From: Methylophaga sp.
GTDB lineage: Bacteria; Pseudomonadota; Gammaproteobacteria; Nitrosococcales; Methylophagaceae
Reading direction: 5' to 3'
NCBI GenBank assembly: GCA_002706095.1
Contig: PAJP01000023.1
Location: 62,001-126,000 of the forward strand
Length of the DNA stretch: 64,000 bases
In this document: positions 20,238-58,199 of the stretch, piece after piece
Position numbering within the stretch: the first letter of the stretch is position 1
Layout: the number at the start of each line of letters is the position of its first letter
The notes under the pieces: generated by a model
The model's input: only the letters and a program-made list of their open reading frames with translations
Databases searched by the model: none
Told to the model about the DNA's origin: nothing
Position numbers and translations under genes: made by a program

Positions 20238-20498
20238 TTAGCGTGTAGCGATAAGGGCTAATTTCGCCTGTCGGCTGAGTTTTTTTATAGCTGCCTCACG
20301 TTTGGAAGCTTGACTGCGATCAGGCTGTGTTTCCTGGTAGACAATCTTTTTTGCCTGACTGGTGTGAAAAAAACGCGCACCAGCTTTGCCGGCTTGATGC
20401 TCTTGAAATCGGCGCGATAAATCAGTGGTGATACCGGTATAGAGATGACCGTTATCTGCCTCGATGATATAAACCGTCCATTCAGTTTTGGTCGTCAA
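20238..20498 (-). CDS. GIY-YIG domain protein (YhbQ/UPF0213 type)
   Basis: An 86-residue single-domain GIY-YIG protein: [27 protein letters not shown] holds the two signature tyrosine blocks and the catalytic-type Arg, and the domain ends with the [14 protein letters not shown] helix. YhbQ-type proteins have been linked to DNA nicking, but their cell role is poorly known. The start lies inside the end of msrB (17-base overlap), so the two are likely one transcript. Confidence 0.88.
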
Positions 20499-20880
20499 AA
20501 TCGAGTGCTACCGAATTAATACAATAACGAAGCCCTGTGGGTGCCGGACCATCGTCGAAGATATGACCTAAGTGTGCATCACAGTGTTGACAGCGTACTT
20601 CTGTCCGGTCCATGCCATGACTGTGATCGGCCAGATGGTTGACCACGCCATGAGATATCTGAGCAGAAAAACTTGGCCAGCCGCAACCAGAATCGAATTT
20701 ATTTTCAGACGAAAACAAGGCTTGTTTACAGCAGGTACATCTATAGACGCCTTGATCATCATGATCGACGTAGATGCCAGAGAATGCGGGTTCTGTGCCA
20801 GACTGACGCGTTACATAAAATTGATCTTCGCTCAGTTCTTCACGCCATTCAGCGTCAGATTTTATCAGTTTGTCAGGCAT
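20482..20880 (-). CDS. msrB: Peptide-methionine (R)-S-oxide reductase MsrB
   Basis: Repairs methionine-R-sulfoxide in proteins. The 132-residue product has the zinc pairs Cys48/Cys51 and Cys97/Cys100, the core CGWPSF, and the catalytic Cys120 in RYCINS. It has Cys and not Sec at the active site, and no signal peptide, so it should be cytoplasmic. The length is standard for a stand-alone MsrB. Confidence 0.96.
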
Positions 20881-20982: not shown

Positions 20983-21014
20983 AAAAAAAAGTTGCCAGCC
21001 AAAAGACTGGCAAC
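20983..21014 (-). terminator. Strong intrinsic terminator of the candidate sRNA
   Basis: Perfect eight-base stem GTTGCCAG / CTGGCAAC (20991-20998 and 21007-21014), eight-base loop, then eight T on the minus strand. No protein gene on the minus strand ends just upstream of it, so it needs an RNA-only transcript to explain it. Confidence 0.85.
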
Positions 21015-21089
21015 AAACTCGGATTTCAGATTTAAGAGAGAGGGAGTAGGTCGGCCTTTGTTGTCACAAATTCCTATCAACTCCATCGG
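20983..21089 (-). ncRNA. Candidate Fur-regulated small RNA
   Basis: On the minus strand a promoter (TTGCTA, 17-base spacer, TATCAT) overlapped by a perfect Fur operator at 21097-21111 leads, about 105 nt later, to an intrinsic terminator: stem GTTGCCAG / CTGGCAAC with eight T. Between them is a pyrimidine-rich run (ACTCCCTCTCTCTT) suited to pairing with ribosome sites. The only frame (ATG at 21086) has no ribosome site and runs through the terminator. The size and layout match RyhB/PrrF-type iron-stress sRNAs, but no sequence homology is claimed. The 5' end is estimated from the -10. Confidence 0.55.
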
Positions 21090-21095
21090 TTAATA

Positions 21096-21124
21096 ATGAT
21101 AATGATTATCATTTAAATTAGCAA
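21096..21124 (-). promoter_or_regulatory. Promoter with perfect Fur box
   Basis: Minus-strand -35 TTGCTA (21124-21119) and -10 TATCAT (21101-21096) with 17 bases between. The 7-1-7 Fur inverted repeat TGATAATGATTATCA fills 21097-21111 with no mismatch, covering the downstream spacer and most of the -10, the classic position for iron-dependent repression. Confidence 0.75.
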
Positions 21125-21401: not shown

Positions 21402-21875
21402 ATGGCTATAAACGGTCTATCTAATAATCTGCATTATCAATATTCAAGGTCATCGAATATAACTGAGAAGGCCAATGCTATTTATGCAAAGTTGAATGAA
21501 GAAGAGCAGAGCTTTCTTGATAAAGACACGATAGAAAAAGCGCTTCAGCAGATAGCGGAAAGTCGAGCCAATACCAATAAATCTTCTTTTTCATTGCAAA
21601 ATGATGCTAACGAAATAATAGATGGCCAAGGCGTAATTCCTAATAAGCAATATGAACTCGCTAATGAGCTAGCTATACGAATACAGGCGAATGATGGCAA
21701 GCCAGAAAAACGGCCTCAAGCATACAATCTTCGTGTTGATGATGTCGGTGTGTTGGTGAGTGATGTCGATACAATTAATCAGAAACCCAAAGCGACGAGT
21801 TCAGCTCAAATAAACGATAAAGAAGCGTTAAGCCTTGAAACTAATGTTAAACGCCATGTTTCTTTAACCGCCTAA
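21402..21875 (+). CDS. Hypothetical protein, possible CpxR-like regulon member
   Basis: A 157-residue hydrophilic protein I do not recognise. There is no signal peptide, membrane segment or Cys. The first half is predicted helical (ITEKANAIYAKLNEEEQSF and TIEKALQQIAESRANTN), and the second half is polar with several short strands. It has a good ribosome site and a long leader that holds three TTTAC repeats and a strong hairpin. It converges on the sensor kinase gene with a five-base gap. The regulatory link to the neighbouring two-component system is inferred from the repeats. Confidence 0.7.
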   Translation: MAINGLSNNLHYQYSRSSNITEKANAIYAKLNEEEQSFLDKDTIEKALQQIAESRANTNKSSFSLQNDANEIIDGQGVIPNKQYELANELAIRIQANDGKPEKRPQAYNLRVDDVGVLVSDVDTINQKPKATSSAQINDKEALSLETNVKRHVSLTA

Positions 21876-21880
21876 ACGGA

Positions 21881-23332
21881 TTATTTTTTATAGGGTAATT
21901 CGACCTCAACTCGAAGACCACCTTCCTGCCTGTTAGCTGCTTTAATTTCACCATGATGTGCACTCACCGCTCGATACGCGATAGCCAAACCTAAACCTAT
22001 ACTGTCATTTCTATGTGTGAGCTGTCCCCGGAAGAAGGGTTTGAATATGGATTCAATATCGGCTTCTGCAACACCAGGACCGTTGTCTTCGATCACAATA
22101 CATAAACGTTGCTTTATGCTGTCCGTTGTTACCCGCAGAGTGATCTCTGCATTTTCAGGAGAGAACTTAATAGCATTTCTCAGAATATTTTCGATAGCTC
22201 TGTGTATCAATTCACTTCTTACAGTAATAAAAATATCTTCAGCAATCGTGTAATGGATTGTTATCTGTTTACTACTGGCTTCAAAACGGGCATCACTGAT
22301 AATTTCATCCAGCAGATCATTCAAGCTAATCTCCACATGAACATTATCCGTCACGCCAGTCTCCAGACGGGATAAGACGAGTAATTCACCGACCAGATCG
22401 CTCATGCGTTGTGATTCCCGCTCTATACGATTCAATATTTCTGGCGTTTTCTCTGGTTGTTGTTCAGCAATACCAATGGCCGCTTGCATTCTCGCCAGTG
22501 GTGAACGAAGTTCATGTGAGACATCGTGTAAAAGGCGTTGTTGTGCTGACATTAGATGACTAATCTTTCCGGCCATATCATCAAAATTCTGGCCCAGTTC
22601 CACCAACTCATCTCGTCGATGCCCCATTTTGTTCCCTATACGGGTGTTAAGTTGGCCCTCTGCTAACTTTGAGAAAGACTGTCTCAGTAATCCGATGGGC
22701 TTGGTAAAGTACCAGGCCAGCAACGCGCTAAAAAAAATCGCTGCAATCAAACCAGAGCCAATCAATAAAACGAGTGGATAGGGCACGGTTTCAGAGGGGG
22801 GAGGGGGAATGCGCCTGGTTTCAAAGGGTGGTGTTGGAAAAGGTTCATTGAGCATGGGAGCTGGCCCAAACTCACGTCGCTCATGCGGTGGCCCGATAAA
22901 GAGTGTTTCTGATACCCCGCGTTTTATTGGCGAGAAAAAGAGTAATGCATTATTTTCTTTATCAGAAACGTAGCGGATGGCGAGGGGGAACTCCCCCTGC
23001 AGAAATAATGCTCGCGCGTAGCCCACAACTTTGGGATCAATAGAGCGACCCAGTACGTCATTCCCCTTATCATCGATGGCATAGACGTCTGGAAATGGTG
23101 CATGATGCGCTTTTTCCAAGAAAGTAATTAATGCAGTCTTACCACCATAGCTGAAAATTTCGGCGGCGACTGAGACAAAAGCATGCGCATCAACATCGAT
23201 TTCCGGATCGGTTTTATTGGCTTGTTCTTGTATGGATTTATGATGTAACCAAACGACCGTTCCCACGCTGAGTCCGGCTAATAATAATGCCAGCCAGAAC
23301 ACAGTAAAGAATTTCCAGAATAACTTACTCAT
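21881..23332 (-). CDS. CpxA-like sensor histidine kinase
   Basis: A 483-residue inner-membrane kinase: membrane segment about 8-30, a periplasmic sensor of roughly 170 residues with a Pro-rich stretch before the second membrane segment (PYPLVLLIGSGLIAAIFFSALLAWYF), HAMP (TKPIGLLRQSFSKLAEGQL), HisKA with the phospho-acceptor in DVSHELRSPLARM, and HATPase_c motifs (NILRNAIKFS, EDNGPGV, GLGLAI). The layout and partner match CpxA/envelope-stress kinases. It lies eight bases after the response regulator gene on the same strand. Confidence 0.87.
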   Translation of the reverse strand: MSKLFWKFFTVFWLALLLAGLSVGTVVWLHHKSIQEQANKTDPEIDVDAHAFVSVAAEIFSYGGKTALITFLEKAHHAPFPDVYAIDDKGNDVLGRSIDPKVVGYARALFLQGEFPLAIRYVSDKENNALLFFSPIKRGVSETLFIGPPHERREFGPAPMLNEPFPTPPFETRRIPPPPSETVPYPLVLLIGSGLIAAIFFSALLAWYFTKPIGLLRQSFSKLAEGQLNTRIGNKMGHRRDELVELGQNFDDMAGKISHLMSAQQRLLHDVSHELRSPLARMQAAIGIAEQQPEKTPEILNRIERESQRMSDLVGELLVLSRLETGVTDNVHVEISLNDLLDEIISDARFEASSKQITIHYTIAEDIFITVRSELIHRAIENILRNAIKFSPENAEITLRVTTDSIKQRLCIVIEDNGPGVAEADIESIFKPFFRGQLTHRNDSIGLGLAIAYRAVSAHHGEIKAANRQEGGLRVEVELPYKK

Positions 23333-23340
23333 CCTAATGA

Positions 23341-24033
23341 TTATTCCCGAATGAATTGATAACCTTTGCCTCTTATTGTCTGAATATAGGACTGTCCGTC
23401 TTGCTGATTGCCCAGTTTCTGACGAATGCTGCTCATATGCACATCAATACTGCGGTCAAACCGCACCAATGGCCGACCCAGTGCGCGTTGAGATAGTTCA
23501 TCTTTGCTGACAACTTGACCGGCTTTACGCACCAATGCTTCGAGTAGGTTAAATTCAGTACTGGTCAACTCCAGTGGCTTTTCAAACCACAAGGCCTGTC
23601 GTTTTTGAGCACTCAGTTGAAGAGGACCTATTTGAATATCCTGTGACTGCATATCCACCATAACAGCATCCATTCGCCGAAGAATCGCACGAATACGAGC
23701 AACGAGCTCTCTTGGTGTGCAGGGTTTGGGCACATAATCATCAGCACCAGACTCCAGGCCTATAATACGATCAATATCATCACCCTTCGCGGTGAACATC
23801 AGTACCGGAATCAGACTTTTCTGGCGAATTTGTAGCAGGATTTCTGTGCCTGAAATATCTGGCAACATCATATCCAGAATAATCAAGTCAAACGAGCCAC
23901 TGAGCGCCATTTCCAAACCAACTTTACCGGTTAAGCTACTTTTCACCTGAAACTGTTCTTGCTCCAGATACTCCTCAAATAATTCAACCAATTCAGCATC
24001 ATCGTCAATGATGAGTACATTCGCCACAGTCAA
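23341..24033 (-). CDS. CpxR-like OmpR-family response regulator
   Basis: A 230-residue regulator: receiver domain with the acidic pocket (IIDDDAELVE), phospho-acceptor Asp in LIILDMMLPD and Lys in MFTAKGDD, then a winged-helix DNA-binding domain (LTSTEFNLLEALVRKAGQVVS, RSIDVHMSSIRQKLG). It is the partner of the adjacent kinase and diverges from a Spy/CpxP-like gene. TTTAC-N5-TTTAC at 24102-24116, the reverse of a CpxR box, lies in the shared promoter region, so autoregulation is likely. Confidence 0.88.
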   Translation of the reverse strand: MTVANVLIIDDDAELVELFEEYLEQEQFQVKSSLTGKVGLEMALSGSFDLIILDMMLPDISGTEILLQIRQKSLIPVLMFTAKGDDIDRIIGLESGADDYVPKPCTPRELVARIRAILRRMDAVMVDMQSQDIQIGPLQLSAQKRQALWFEKPLELTSTEFNLLEALVRKAGQVVSKDELSQRALGRPLVRFDRSIDVHMSSIRQKLGNQQDGQSYIQTIRGKGYQFIRE

Positions 24034-55430: not shown

Positions 55431-55459
55431 TTGTAACTCTAAAGGATAATCATTATTAT
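55431..55459 (+). promoter_or_regulatory. Fur-like box over a promoter
   Basis: TTGTAA (55431-55436), 17-base spacer, TATTAT (55454-55459). GGATAATCATTATTA at 55444-55458 matches the 7-1-7 Fur repeat at 12 of 14 specified bases. The geometry is the same as at the candidate sRNA promoter. It points toward the TonB receptor gene, whose start is about 470 bases downstream. Confidence 0.6.
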
Positions 55460-55937: not shown

Positions 55938-58199
55938 ATGGCAAAAAAAGATACTAAAATTGGGCCTCGCAGCTACACTTCTCGAGCGAGTAGTCAAAAG
56001 TGGGTGATGACGACATTGGCTCTGGCATTATCATCGGCGATGACAACACCAGCCTTTGCTGAAGAGGTCGATCTCGATACTGTTGTTATCGAGGGAGACA
56101 AGTCTAGTGCAGAAAGTAATCCTTACGCAGAGCCTGATGCACCGTATAAAGCCAACCGTTTATCAGACAGCAAACGTACACGTGATATTGCTGAAACGCC
56201 ACAAACCATGACTGTTTTGACGAAAGAGTCGATTATTGACTCAGGTAAGACAGAGTTAAAAGATATTCTGAGCGCACAGCCTGGCATTACATTGGGTACA
56301 GGTGAAGGCGGTAACTCTTTCGGTGATCGCTATATTATTCGTGGTTATGAAGCGCGTAATGATGTGTTCACCGACGGTTTGCGTGACCCAGGCCTCATCA
56401 CCCGTGAAACTTTTGCGCTTGAGCAAGTTGAAATTACAAAAGGTCCTAGTTCGACATTTGCAGGGCGTGGGTCTACCGGTGGTGCCGTAAATAGTGTGAC
56501 TAAAAAGGCGAGTCTGGATGATGACTTTACAACGCTATCGGGTGGCCTAGGTACAGATGAATATCAGCGCTATACCTTAGATACGAATAAAGTACTGAGT
56601 GATGATTTCGCAATTCGCTTTAATGCTTTATACAGTGAGGCAGATGTGCCTGATCGTGACCCAGCAGAAAAACGACGCCAAGGTGCTTTGTTGTCTGCAG
56701 TTTATCAGCCGACCGATGAACTTAGCCTGACAGCAGATTATTATCACTTTCGTGCCGATGATCGAACGGATCCGGGTGTTGCTCTGGATCGAGATACCAA
56801 CAAAATACTTAAGTATGATTATGTTGGCCAGGACGGACTAGACTTCCAACATTCCAAGGCAGATATTTTTACATTTGGTTTTGATGTTGAGTTAACAGAG
56901 GGCCTGCGATTAGAAAATAAATCGCGTGTTGGTAAAACTGAAAACGAGTATATCGTGACTGCCTATAGTGCTCGCTCAGCAGGTACGCGATCATTCACCG
57001 GTTGGCAGGAAAATGATTACCTTGGCAACCAGACAAACTTAATTATCGATCAGAATCTTTGGGGCAAACGCCATACCATCGTTACAGGTATTGAATTTGC
57101 TAAAGAAGAAATGGATGCCGGGAATTATGATGTTAACCCATCCAGCGTAGCGGTTGACCCATATAACCCTAACAATAATGCTTGGTCGGGTATGGCTAGT
57201 AAAAGTGATGCCACTACTGAGTTAGAGTTGAAAACAGTATCTGCGTACTTAATGGACACCATTACACTCAATGATGATTGGGAAGTATTTGCGGGTGTGC
57301 GTTATGACTACTTTGACTATGATCTTTGGACAGCGGCTGGTCGCTCTCCGGAAATGGATCGTAGCTACAGTGATGGTTTCTGGAATGGACATGTTGGCGT
57401 CGTATTCTCACCATGGGAAAACGGTAACATTTACCTTAGCTGGAGTACTTCTTCCAATATCAATGGTGGTGAAGCTGATGCTGGCGGTAGCTGTGGTTAT
57501 GGTGGTTTGTGTTCAGACTCTGATGGCAACTATAAGAGTGCCGATCCTGAGCAGTCTACTAATTGGGAGCTAGGCACTAAGTGGAATCTGTTTGATAATA
57601 ATCTGCTATTAACGGCCGCTATTTTCCAAACCACGAAGGAAGATGTTATTGAAGGTGGTGTGGACTCCTACAATAGTGGTGGCACATTAAATACTGGTGA
57701 AAACCGTGTCCGAGGTATTGAGCTAGGGTTGTCCGGTAATATTACTGAAAGATTGAGTGGTCAGATGGGCTTTGCAATGATGCATTCTGATACATTGGAT
57801 TCATACTTTGACGGTACGAAAGAGGTTACTGGCCGAGGTGGTTCAATCTCCTACCCTGATAATATCGGTAAACCAAAAGCTAACTTCGCGAAACGTAGCT
57901 TTAATGGTCAATTAAAATATCAGGCCACGCAAAAATTCGCCTTTGGTGGTGTGGTTACCTATTCCAGTGGCATGTTTGGCGGACAGCCAGATGCGGCAGC
58001 TAACACGGATATAAGTATTCCCGGATATATTGTTTATGATGCCTTTGCTTCTTATGAAATCAACGACAACATGACAGTCCGTGCCAATATTCTTAACTTG
58101 TTTGATAAGGATTACTACACCGCGTTATATCGAGGTGGCAGCATCGTCTATAAAGGTGATGCAAGAAGCGCCAATGTCAATCTGACCTATAAGTTCTGA
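55938..58199 (+). CDS. TonB-dependent siderophore receptor (catecholate, Fiu/PiuA type)
   Basis: A 753-residue outer-membrane receptor. It has an extended signal peptide (hydrophobic core about 22-38, cleavage after AFA near 41), a TonB-box region (DLDTVVIEG, about 45-53), a plug domain (IAETPQTMTVLTKE, YIIRGYEARNDVFTDGLRD, EQVEITKGPSSTFAGRGSTGGAVN), and a 22-strand barrel ending in the aromatic NVNLTYKF. The neighbour PiuC/YbiX-type hydroxylase and the Fur-like box upstream suggest catecholate siderophore uptake. The ribosome site is GTGAAGGAA. The ligand itself cannot be told. Confidence 0.9.
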   Translation: MAKKDTKIGPRSYTSRASSQKWVMTTLALALSSAMTTPAFAEEVDLDTVVIEGDKSSAESNPYAEPDAPYKANRLSDSKRTRDIAETPQTMTVLTKESIIDSGKTELKDILSAQPGITLGTGEGGNSFGDRYIIRGYEARNDVFTDGLRDPGLITRETFALEQVEITKGPSSTFAGRGSTGGAVNSVTKKASLDDDFTTLSGGLGTDEYQRYTLDTNKVLSDDFAIRFNALYSEADVPDRDPAEKRRQGALLSAVYQPTDELSLTADYYHFRADDRTDPGVALDRDTNKILKYDYVGQDGLDFQHSKADIFTFGFDVELTEGLRLENKSRVGKTENEYIVTAYSARSAGTRSFTGWQENDYLGNQTNLIIDQNLWGKRHTIVTGIEFAKEEMDAGNYDVNPSSVAVDPYNPNNNAWSGMASKSDATTELELKTVSAYLMDTITLNDDWEVFAGVRYDYFDYDLWTAAGRSPEMDRSYSDGFWNGHVGVVFSPWENGNIYLSWSTSSNINGGEADAGGSCGYGGLCSDSDGNYKSADPEQSTNWELGTKWNLFDNNLLLTAAIFQTTKEDVIEGGVDSYNSGGTLNTGENRVRGIELGLSGNITERLSGQMGFAMMHSDTLDSYFDGTKEVTGRGGSISYPDNIGKPKANFAKRSFNGQLKYQATQKFAFGGVVTYSSGMFGGQPDAAANTDISIPGYIVYDAFASYEINDNMTVRANILNLFDKDYYTALYRGGSIVYKGDARSANVNLTYKF

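Follow-up and report, generated by a model that had tools for sequence, protein, structure and literature searches.

The window analysed here is a stretch of 64,000 nucleotides from one genome (G000). Its minus strand shows, between 21124 and 20983, the anatomy of a small RNA (sRNA) gene, which is directly visible in the sequence: a promoter, a Fur box over the -10 element, a region read as about 106 transcribed nucleotides and a terminator. The -35 hexamer TTGCTA (21119-21124, minus strand) is separated by a 17-base spacer from the -10 hexamer TATCAT (21096-21101, minus strand), which was found by a promoter scan. A perfect 15-base repeat of 7-1-7 form, TGATAATCATTATCA (elsewhere written TGATAATNATTATCA), occupies positions 21111-21097 without being assigned to a strand and spans most of the -10, with the T at 21096 outside the box. 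This promoter and the Fur repeat over its -10 had been proposed in an earlier note, and both were found again on re-reading the minus strand. The predicted sRNA (20985-21090, minus strand; about 106 nt) is delimited by the promoter and the terminator; its start near A21090 is placed from the -10 and not mapped, and its end is set at 20985. A 5' arm, GAUGGAG (21081-21087, minus strand), has a predicted partner, CUCCCUC, at 21040-21046 in both the minimum free energy (MFE) fold and the alignment consensus. It is followed by a conserved core, ACUCCCUCUCUCUUAAAUCUGAAA(A/U)CCGAG (21018-21047, minus strand; U in G000), which is the proposed antisense seed. The intrinsic terminator (20983-21014, minus strand) combines a stem at 21014-20991, GTTGCCAGTC TTTT GGCTGGCAAC, with eight T at 20990-20983. 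The hairpin and its T tract are thus as the earlier note described them, but the stem has 10 pairs, including one G-U, and not eight.

The same-strand upstream neighbours are a histidine kinase and response regulator pair (21881-24033), while msrB (20482-20880, minus strand; Pfam SelR, TIGR00357), a GIY-YIG protein gene and an ABC-F ATPase gene follow downstream. Between the kinase gene and the sRNA, and divergent from the latter, lies a plus-strand frame of 157 aa (21402-21875) with no Pfam or NCBIfam match.

The promoter and the terminator, each taken alone, are unremarkable and as common in shuffled DNA: over 1301 bases and both strands, 3 promoter-like sites were found where 3.5 are expected by chance, and 1 terminator-like site where the expectation is 1.0. 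The Fur 15-mer with zero mismatches is the sole one in 1,179,039 bases of G000 (a third of the genome) and none occurs in 5 dinucleotide-Markov draws; at no more than one mismatch, this 1.18 Mb holds 4 sites against 0.4 expected. The same genome carries a fur gene (PF01475), a direct observation. The 107-nt interval folds better than all of 200 shuffles (z -3.9), a value to which the terminator contributes. Elsewhere in the window, another Fur-like box (55445-55457), with one mismatch to the 13-mer searched, lies about 480 bases before a long frame starting at 55938 that looks by eye like a TonB-dependent receptor. A Fur-type box and a similar promoter are also found in G021, G017, G016 and G008 before a bfd-like frame (MIVCVCNNVNV..., named by eye), and these promoters make a useful positive control for the Fur box. 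The main support for the locus comes from its conservation in near relatives.

A 29-letter core pattern matched 7 stretches in a collection of 84,980 species genomes, from which records close to the window's own were possibly left out. All seven are from Methylophaga, and the genus is therefore Methylophaga. The sRNA unit is present in 10 of 24 Methylophaga genomes, that of the window included, and a diverged copy occurs in an eleventh (G009). DNA searches, which provide conservation evidence independent of any model, gave full-length matches down to E 3.8e-10; the match covers the core and terminator only in G006 and G015, and the Fur box alone in G007 and G009. Model R1 recovers the ten unit-bearing genomes with E values from 5e-23 to 6e-15, although it was built from those ten. 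The 30-nt core, ACUCCCUCUCUCUUAAAUCUGAAAACCGAG, is 90-97% identical to that of G000 in the nine other genomes. The DNA upstream of the -35 is identical (100%) in G038, but only 44-56% identical in the other eight. For these eight genomes, without the near-identical G038, identity to G000 is 68-93% in the promoter, 41-90% in the 5' arm, 64-94% in the terminator and 17-48% in the downstream DNA. At the -35, CTTG is read in all of the 11 aligned loci but G015, which has CTTT, the second-place A of the -10 and the ATT that follows are invariant in all 10 alignment rows, and the terminator stem cells are 95% paired across the 10 genomes. Promoter, interval and hairpin are conserved in near relatives at the sequence level, where the earlier note had held that a lack of such conservation would speak against an sRNA. 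The terminator and a 5' stem (GAUGGAG:CUCCCUC) are predicted alike by RNAalifold and MFE folding, which leave most of the core single-stranded beyond its first seven to eight letters. Covariation is uninformative, the 5' stem pairs being nearly invariant, and speaks neither for nor against that stem.

The G009 copy scores E 0.0011 with R1, an independent value; its E of 2.4e-12 with the promoter-plus-RNA model R2 arises by construction, as its sequence is included in R2. A Fur-type promoter and a terminator are both present, as is CUCUCUCU, and the stem, AGATGG/CCATCT, is in a shifted register. The copy lies directly upstream of the ABC-F gene, which is the third gene downstream in the window. 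It follows two frames that are phage-like by eye and is away from msrB. No convincing copy was found in the other 13 of the 24 genus genomes, some of them incomplete, even with R2, whose weak matches in core-less genomes (11 loci inspected by eye) correspond to Fur-type promoters of coding frames or are unclear. Upstream of msrB in 12 other genomes of the genus, no copy was seen by eye in 11, and in G002 the contig starts 30 bases before the gene. R1 was also run on 369 genomes sampled from the class, with filters under which weak matches are lost, and matched only G000, G013 and one doubtful locus (G128, E 0.0012) where no Fur box is seen by eye.

Target prediction used translation starts called mechanically, for 777 genes on 790 kb and later for 343 genes on 389 kb more, i.e. 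1120 starts in 1.18 Mb or about a third of the genome. Perfect complements of 13 nt to the sRNA occur at 2 of the 777 starts: that of an encapsulated ferritin (EncFtn, PF22277; TTTTAAGAGAGAGGAG) and that of the DmmA-like gene (PF22290; TTCAGATTTAAGA) of a dimethylamine monooxygenase operon. Two such matches were reached by 1 of 300 shuffled seeds, and none of 656 mid-gene windows has one. Ranking of the 777 starts by co-folding places an FdsG-type formate dehydrogenase subunit first, and the top 12 also include DmmA, an FdxA-like protein, an RlmD-like protein, CcoN, a sulfite-reductase-like protein and EncFtn. The names FdxA and RlmD are presumptive, and we take RlmD to carry an Fe-S cluster and Dmm to contain iron. 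The accessible part of the Dmm paper (PMC5520151) makes no mention of heme, haem or ferredoxin. The other five of the top 12 are the neighbouring histidine kinase, a doubtful frame upstream of fdsG, RecR, a LuxR-type regulator and a family-less protein. A crude count of iron proteins by Cys motifs retains 19 of the 777 genes, with 1 in the top 12 and 2 in the top 30, too few to judge. A full 13-nt wobble complement of the C/U run was rejected as a target finder; it has 16 matches in 6 genomes, of which 5 are the locus itself.

Several of these leaders can be described by a bipartite rule in which a block A, complementary to UUAAAUCUGAAAACCGAG, is followed by a block B complementary to the C/U run. 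Among the 1120 starts, 11 match in total; when block A was shuffled 300 times, 109 of the shuffles gave at least as many. The excess sharpens with the score: 7 starts at 13 or more (reached by 36/300 shuffles), 5 at 14 or more (10/300) and 4 at 15 or more (1/300, shuffle mean 0.69). The five best sites, those of DmmA, FdsG, RlmD, a cytochrome b561 (PF01292) and a catalase (PF00199), are all at iron-related genes or operons. Six of the seven sites scoring at least 13 are iron-related, a CcoG-like gene being added, while the seventh belongs to a sulfate permease; none of the four lowest of the 11 is iron-related by eye. By comparison, about 3 of 30 and 2-3 of 20 random genes were judged iron-related by eye, i.e. 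about 5-6 of 50. The rule was drawn up with knowledge of the FdsG, RlmD and DmmA sites, and the CcoG-like gene had also come up before, so that cytochrome b561 and catalase are the new members. The C/T run that the earlier note regarded as able to pair with Shine-Dalgarno regions does open the most conserved part of the RNA, and matches leaders of iron-related genes.

The predicted sites were followed in orthologous leaders. A complement of 12-13 nt is found in the EncFtn leader of all 5 core-bearing genomes with the gene (13 nt in G000, G038 and G012; 12 nt in G014 and G022). The encapsulated-ferritin frame of G038 is broken into two pieces, and its leader is intact. Of nine genomes without a detected sRNA, two also have a GAGAGAGGG tract at the ferritin gene; these are G019 and G011, with AGAGAGAGGG at the start, which might point to an unrecognised substitute sRNA. 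Of seven core-bearing genomes, six have GGAGAGAG and five have TTTCAGAT in the fdsG leader, and a GAGAGAG-type tract is present in 2 of 3 genomes with fdsG but no detected sRNA. The CcoN leader carries GGTTTTCAG and GAGAGAGAG in G012 and G014 (energies -19.8 and -21.2) and lacks the first block in G000, where that part of the core shows one change. TTTCAGA and AAGAG occur before RlmD in all 4 genomes read, with altered spacing in G005. The Dmm site is found in 2 of 8 core-bearing genomes with a readable leader (the G038 start is unresolved), and 9-nt matches occur in the Dmm leader of two genomes without a detected sRNA. The FdxA energy falls to -8.1 in G012 and G014 (-13.1 in G005), and in three genomes the leader of the sulfite-reductase-like gene likewise drops, to values from -7 to -10.

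Over 423 orthologue pairs from G000 and G005, the joint energy ranks CcoN, FdsG, FdxA and RlmD as the top four, followed by PyrH- and RecR-like genes. The control with shuffled cores used the RNA without its terminator hairpin, and these cores keep the C/U tracts. With 36 such cores, CcoN ranks 1-55, FdsG 1-33 and FdxA 1-22, against 2, 1 and 6 with the real core, whereas RlmD ranks 3 of 423 with the real core and 24-396 with all 36 shuffled ones. Except for RlmD, the energy ranks are thus not specific to the core. The energies in G000 and G005 correlate at 0.24, no more strongly than with shuffled cores (0.15-0.33). Among the 423 orthologues of G005 there are 5 bipartite sites, of which only that of RlmD is common to G000. 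The best bipartite complement of the 423 (AGATTTAA, AAGAGAGA) belongs to a G005 gene that is PqqC-like by eye, and its G000 orthologue has none. In the held-out 389 kb, 3 of the 10 top genes by energy are iron-related, against 2-3 of 20 random ones, a difference that is not significant; four of these ten were scanned with Pfam, and the other six, like both sets of random genes (20 and 30), were judged by eye. The three are a pirin (PF02678), a CcoG-like protein (Fer4_18) and a protein that is NirB-like by eye, of which Pfam detects the pyridine-nucleotide part only. Taking these results together, we infer that rlmD, the encapsulated-ferritin gene, fdsG, catalase and cytochrome b561 are the best target candidates, with ccoN and the dimethylamine monooxygenase operon as weaker ones.

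We are highly confident, as a matter of judgement, that the locus is a real and conserved sRNA gene, very probably controlled by Fur. That its product is a trans-acting, Fur-repressed, iron-sparing antisense sRNA, for which we infer transcription, Fur binding and all targets, seems probable (roughly 80%). In this model, when iron is plentiful, iron-loaded Fur would sit on the box over the -10 and block transcription. When iron falls, the transcript of about 106 nt would be made and would end at its own terminator, its 5' arm folding back on part of the C/U run. The core, CUCUCUCUUAAAUCUGAAAACCGAG, would then pair in one or two blocks with mRNA sequences of the type 5'-UUUUCAGA(U)-n-AAGAGAGAGG-3'. 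These sites are predicted to lie at or just upstream of the ribosome-binding site in mRNAs for iron-storing, heme and Fe-S proteins, whose translation would be blocked and iron thereby spared. An RNA chaperone, if any, is presumed; Hfq was not found when the sequence read, a third of the genome, was searched by motif, which decides nothing. As far as sequence can test it, the interpretation given in the earlier note is supported.

Could the transcript instead be a Fur-controlled 5' leader, or encode a small protein? An ATG frame does run through the core, with 47 codons in G000 and 48 in G038. However, it is absent from the other 8 of the 10 genomes, with a stop after 11 codons in G022, G014, G012, G013 and G006, while G004, G005 and G015 lack the ATG in this position. 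Frames that begin with TTG run through the core in three genomes (G005, G006 and G013) and have the core-encoded residues PSLLNLKTEF in common, but their upstream residues differ, and G022, G014, G012 and G004 have no start-bearing frame with these residues. The observation is plain: no start-bearing frame is common to all ten unit-bearing genomes. A peptide gene was rejected on this basis, with reservations about the partial core-crossing frames, and the ten genomes do not preserve the interval as a single protein frame; it is conservation as such a frame that the earlier note had named as contrary to an sRNA. A leader is further disfavoured by the terminator placed before msrB and by the position of the diverged G009 copy, which precedes ABC-F instead. 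Both forms of this explanation appear very improbable. Descent from the PrrF family seems just as hard to sustain. PrrF (RF00444) is the best Rfam match of the stretch, over its full length and with E 0.025, but it scores 25.3 bits where the gathering score is 90. Most of the agreement comes from the Fur box, the terminator and the AT-rich promoter, and the core does not resemble PrrF. In addition, the matches of R1 among the class genomes were limited to the three loci given above, in a sample that may not include Pseudomonas. Over the locus, every Rfam family stays below its threshold, and RyhB is not among the 10 Rfam matches at E up to 10. The earlier note recognised no homologue; this is correct for Rfam at its thresholds, but not within the genus, part of which carries homologues.

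A further explanation accepts a Fur-repressed sRNA and supposes that its C/U-rich core acts mainly on non-iron mRNAs (uptake, motility, envelope) or sponges another RNA. It draws on the energy ranking, which is not core-specific for three of the candidates, on the kinase, RecR, LuxR-type and family-less genes in the top 12 of 777, on the PyrH- and RecR-like genes that come after the first four in the two-species ranking, and on a screen that covered a third of the genome. However, iron-related genes or operons hold both the five best bipartite sites and the two longest contiguous complements, and we consider this explanation unlikely, though less so than the two above. An iron-sparing antisense sRNA remains our preferred reading, which would make it a new family of a known kind, with a RyhB-like job and a sequence of its own.

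RyhB has a Fur-controlled promoter, a length of about 100 nt and a terminator with a U tract, and one of its classical targets is in the sdhC-type family PF01127 (succinate dehydrogenase cytochrome). The sRNA described here resembles the RyhB of Escherichia coli in its organisation and in its probable job, predicted here as antisense action on the translation starts of iron proteins. Unlike for RyhB, sdhC was rejected as a target because PF01127 was not found in any of the 24 genus genomes, against 7 of 14 control genomes. PrrF1 and PrrF2 of Pseudomonas aeruginosa share the overall organisation and the weak full-length model match; they differ in that R1 finds a single copy in the genome here, with about 25 of 90 bits and a different core. 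The likeness to RyhB and PrrF drawn in the earlier note therefore extends to organisation and probable job but not to descent. NrrF, HrrF and RusT are other analogues, i.e. lineage-limited iron-starvation sRNAs. In the accessible part of its description, IsrR of Staphylococcus aureus pairs through C-rich motifs with Shine-Dalgarno sequences and acts on the formate dehydrogenase mRNA fdhA (PMC9410917). IsrR and FsrA are thus similar in the pairing of a C-rich motif with Shine-Dalgarno regions of iron-enzyme mRNAs and in a formate dehydrogenase target (fdhA for IsrR; fdsG predicted here). However, they belong to another phylum, IsrR has C-rich loops where a single 30-nt C/U-plus-A-rich core is found here, and the comparison was made via Rfam only. 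BrrF of Burkholderia cenocepacia is likewise an iron-starvation sRNA limited to one lineage; according to the accessible text (PMC7377471), it differs in that its immediate upstream region lacks a Fur box, and it is probably expressed together with hemP.

The genus Methylophaga consists mainly of marine methylotrophs, whose one-carbon and respiratory enzymes include several Fe-S or heme proteins. It is possible, and an attractive idea that we hold only tentatively, that the sRNA arose within the lineage as a Fur sRNA without common descent with RyhB or PrrF, and that its regulon has been rewired to methylotrophy. If so, in the absence of an sdhC-type target, iron would be spared by silencing formate dehydrogenase, dimethylamine monooxygenase, the cbb3 oxidase, catalase and encapsulated ferritin, and a two-block seed of 30 nt would couple C1 and methylamine oxidation and encapsulin iron storage to the iron supply. 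Searches of open-licence papers, including the accessible part of PMC11526790, turned up no account of a Methylophaga sRNA or a methylotroph Fur sRNA, and in this literature we found no regulatory RNA linking iron to methylotrophy and no link between iron-starvation sRNAs and encapsulins. With a conserved sRNA and a named set of candidate targets, the link between iron and methylotrophy becomes testable, and the RNA would add an analogue of RyhB without detectable kinship to the known ones.

The genes adjoining the sRNA were also considered as targets. The E. coli homologue of msrB is a target of RyhB, according to the accessible part of PMC3650055; here, the neighbouring msrB is not predicted to pair and was rejected as an adjacent target (pairing rank 708 of 777). 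The histidine kinase gene on the other side (21881-23332) ranks third of 777 in predicted pairing and may be a local target.
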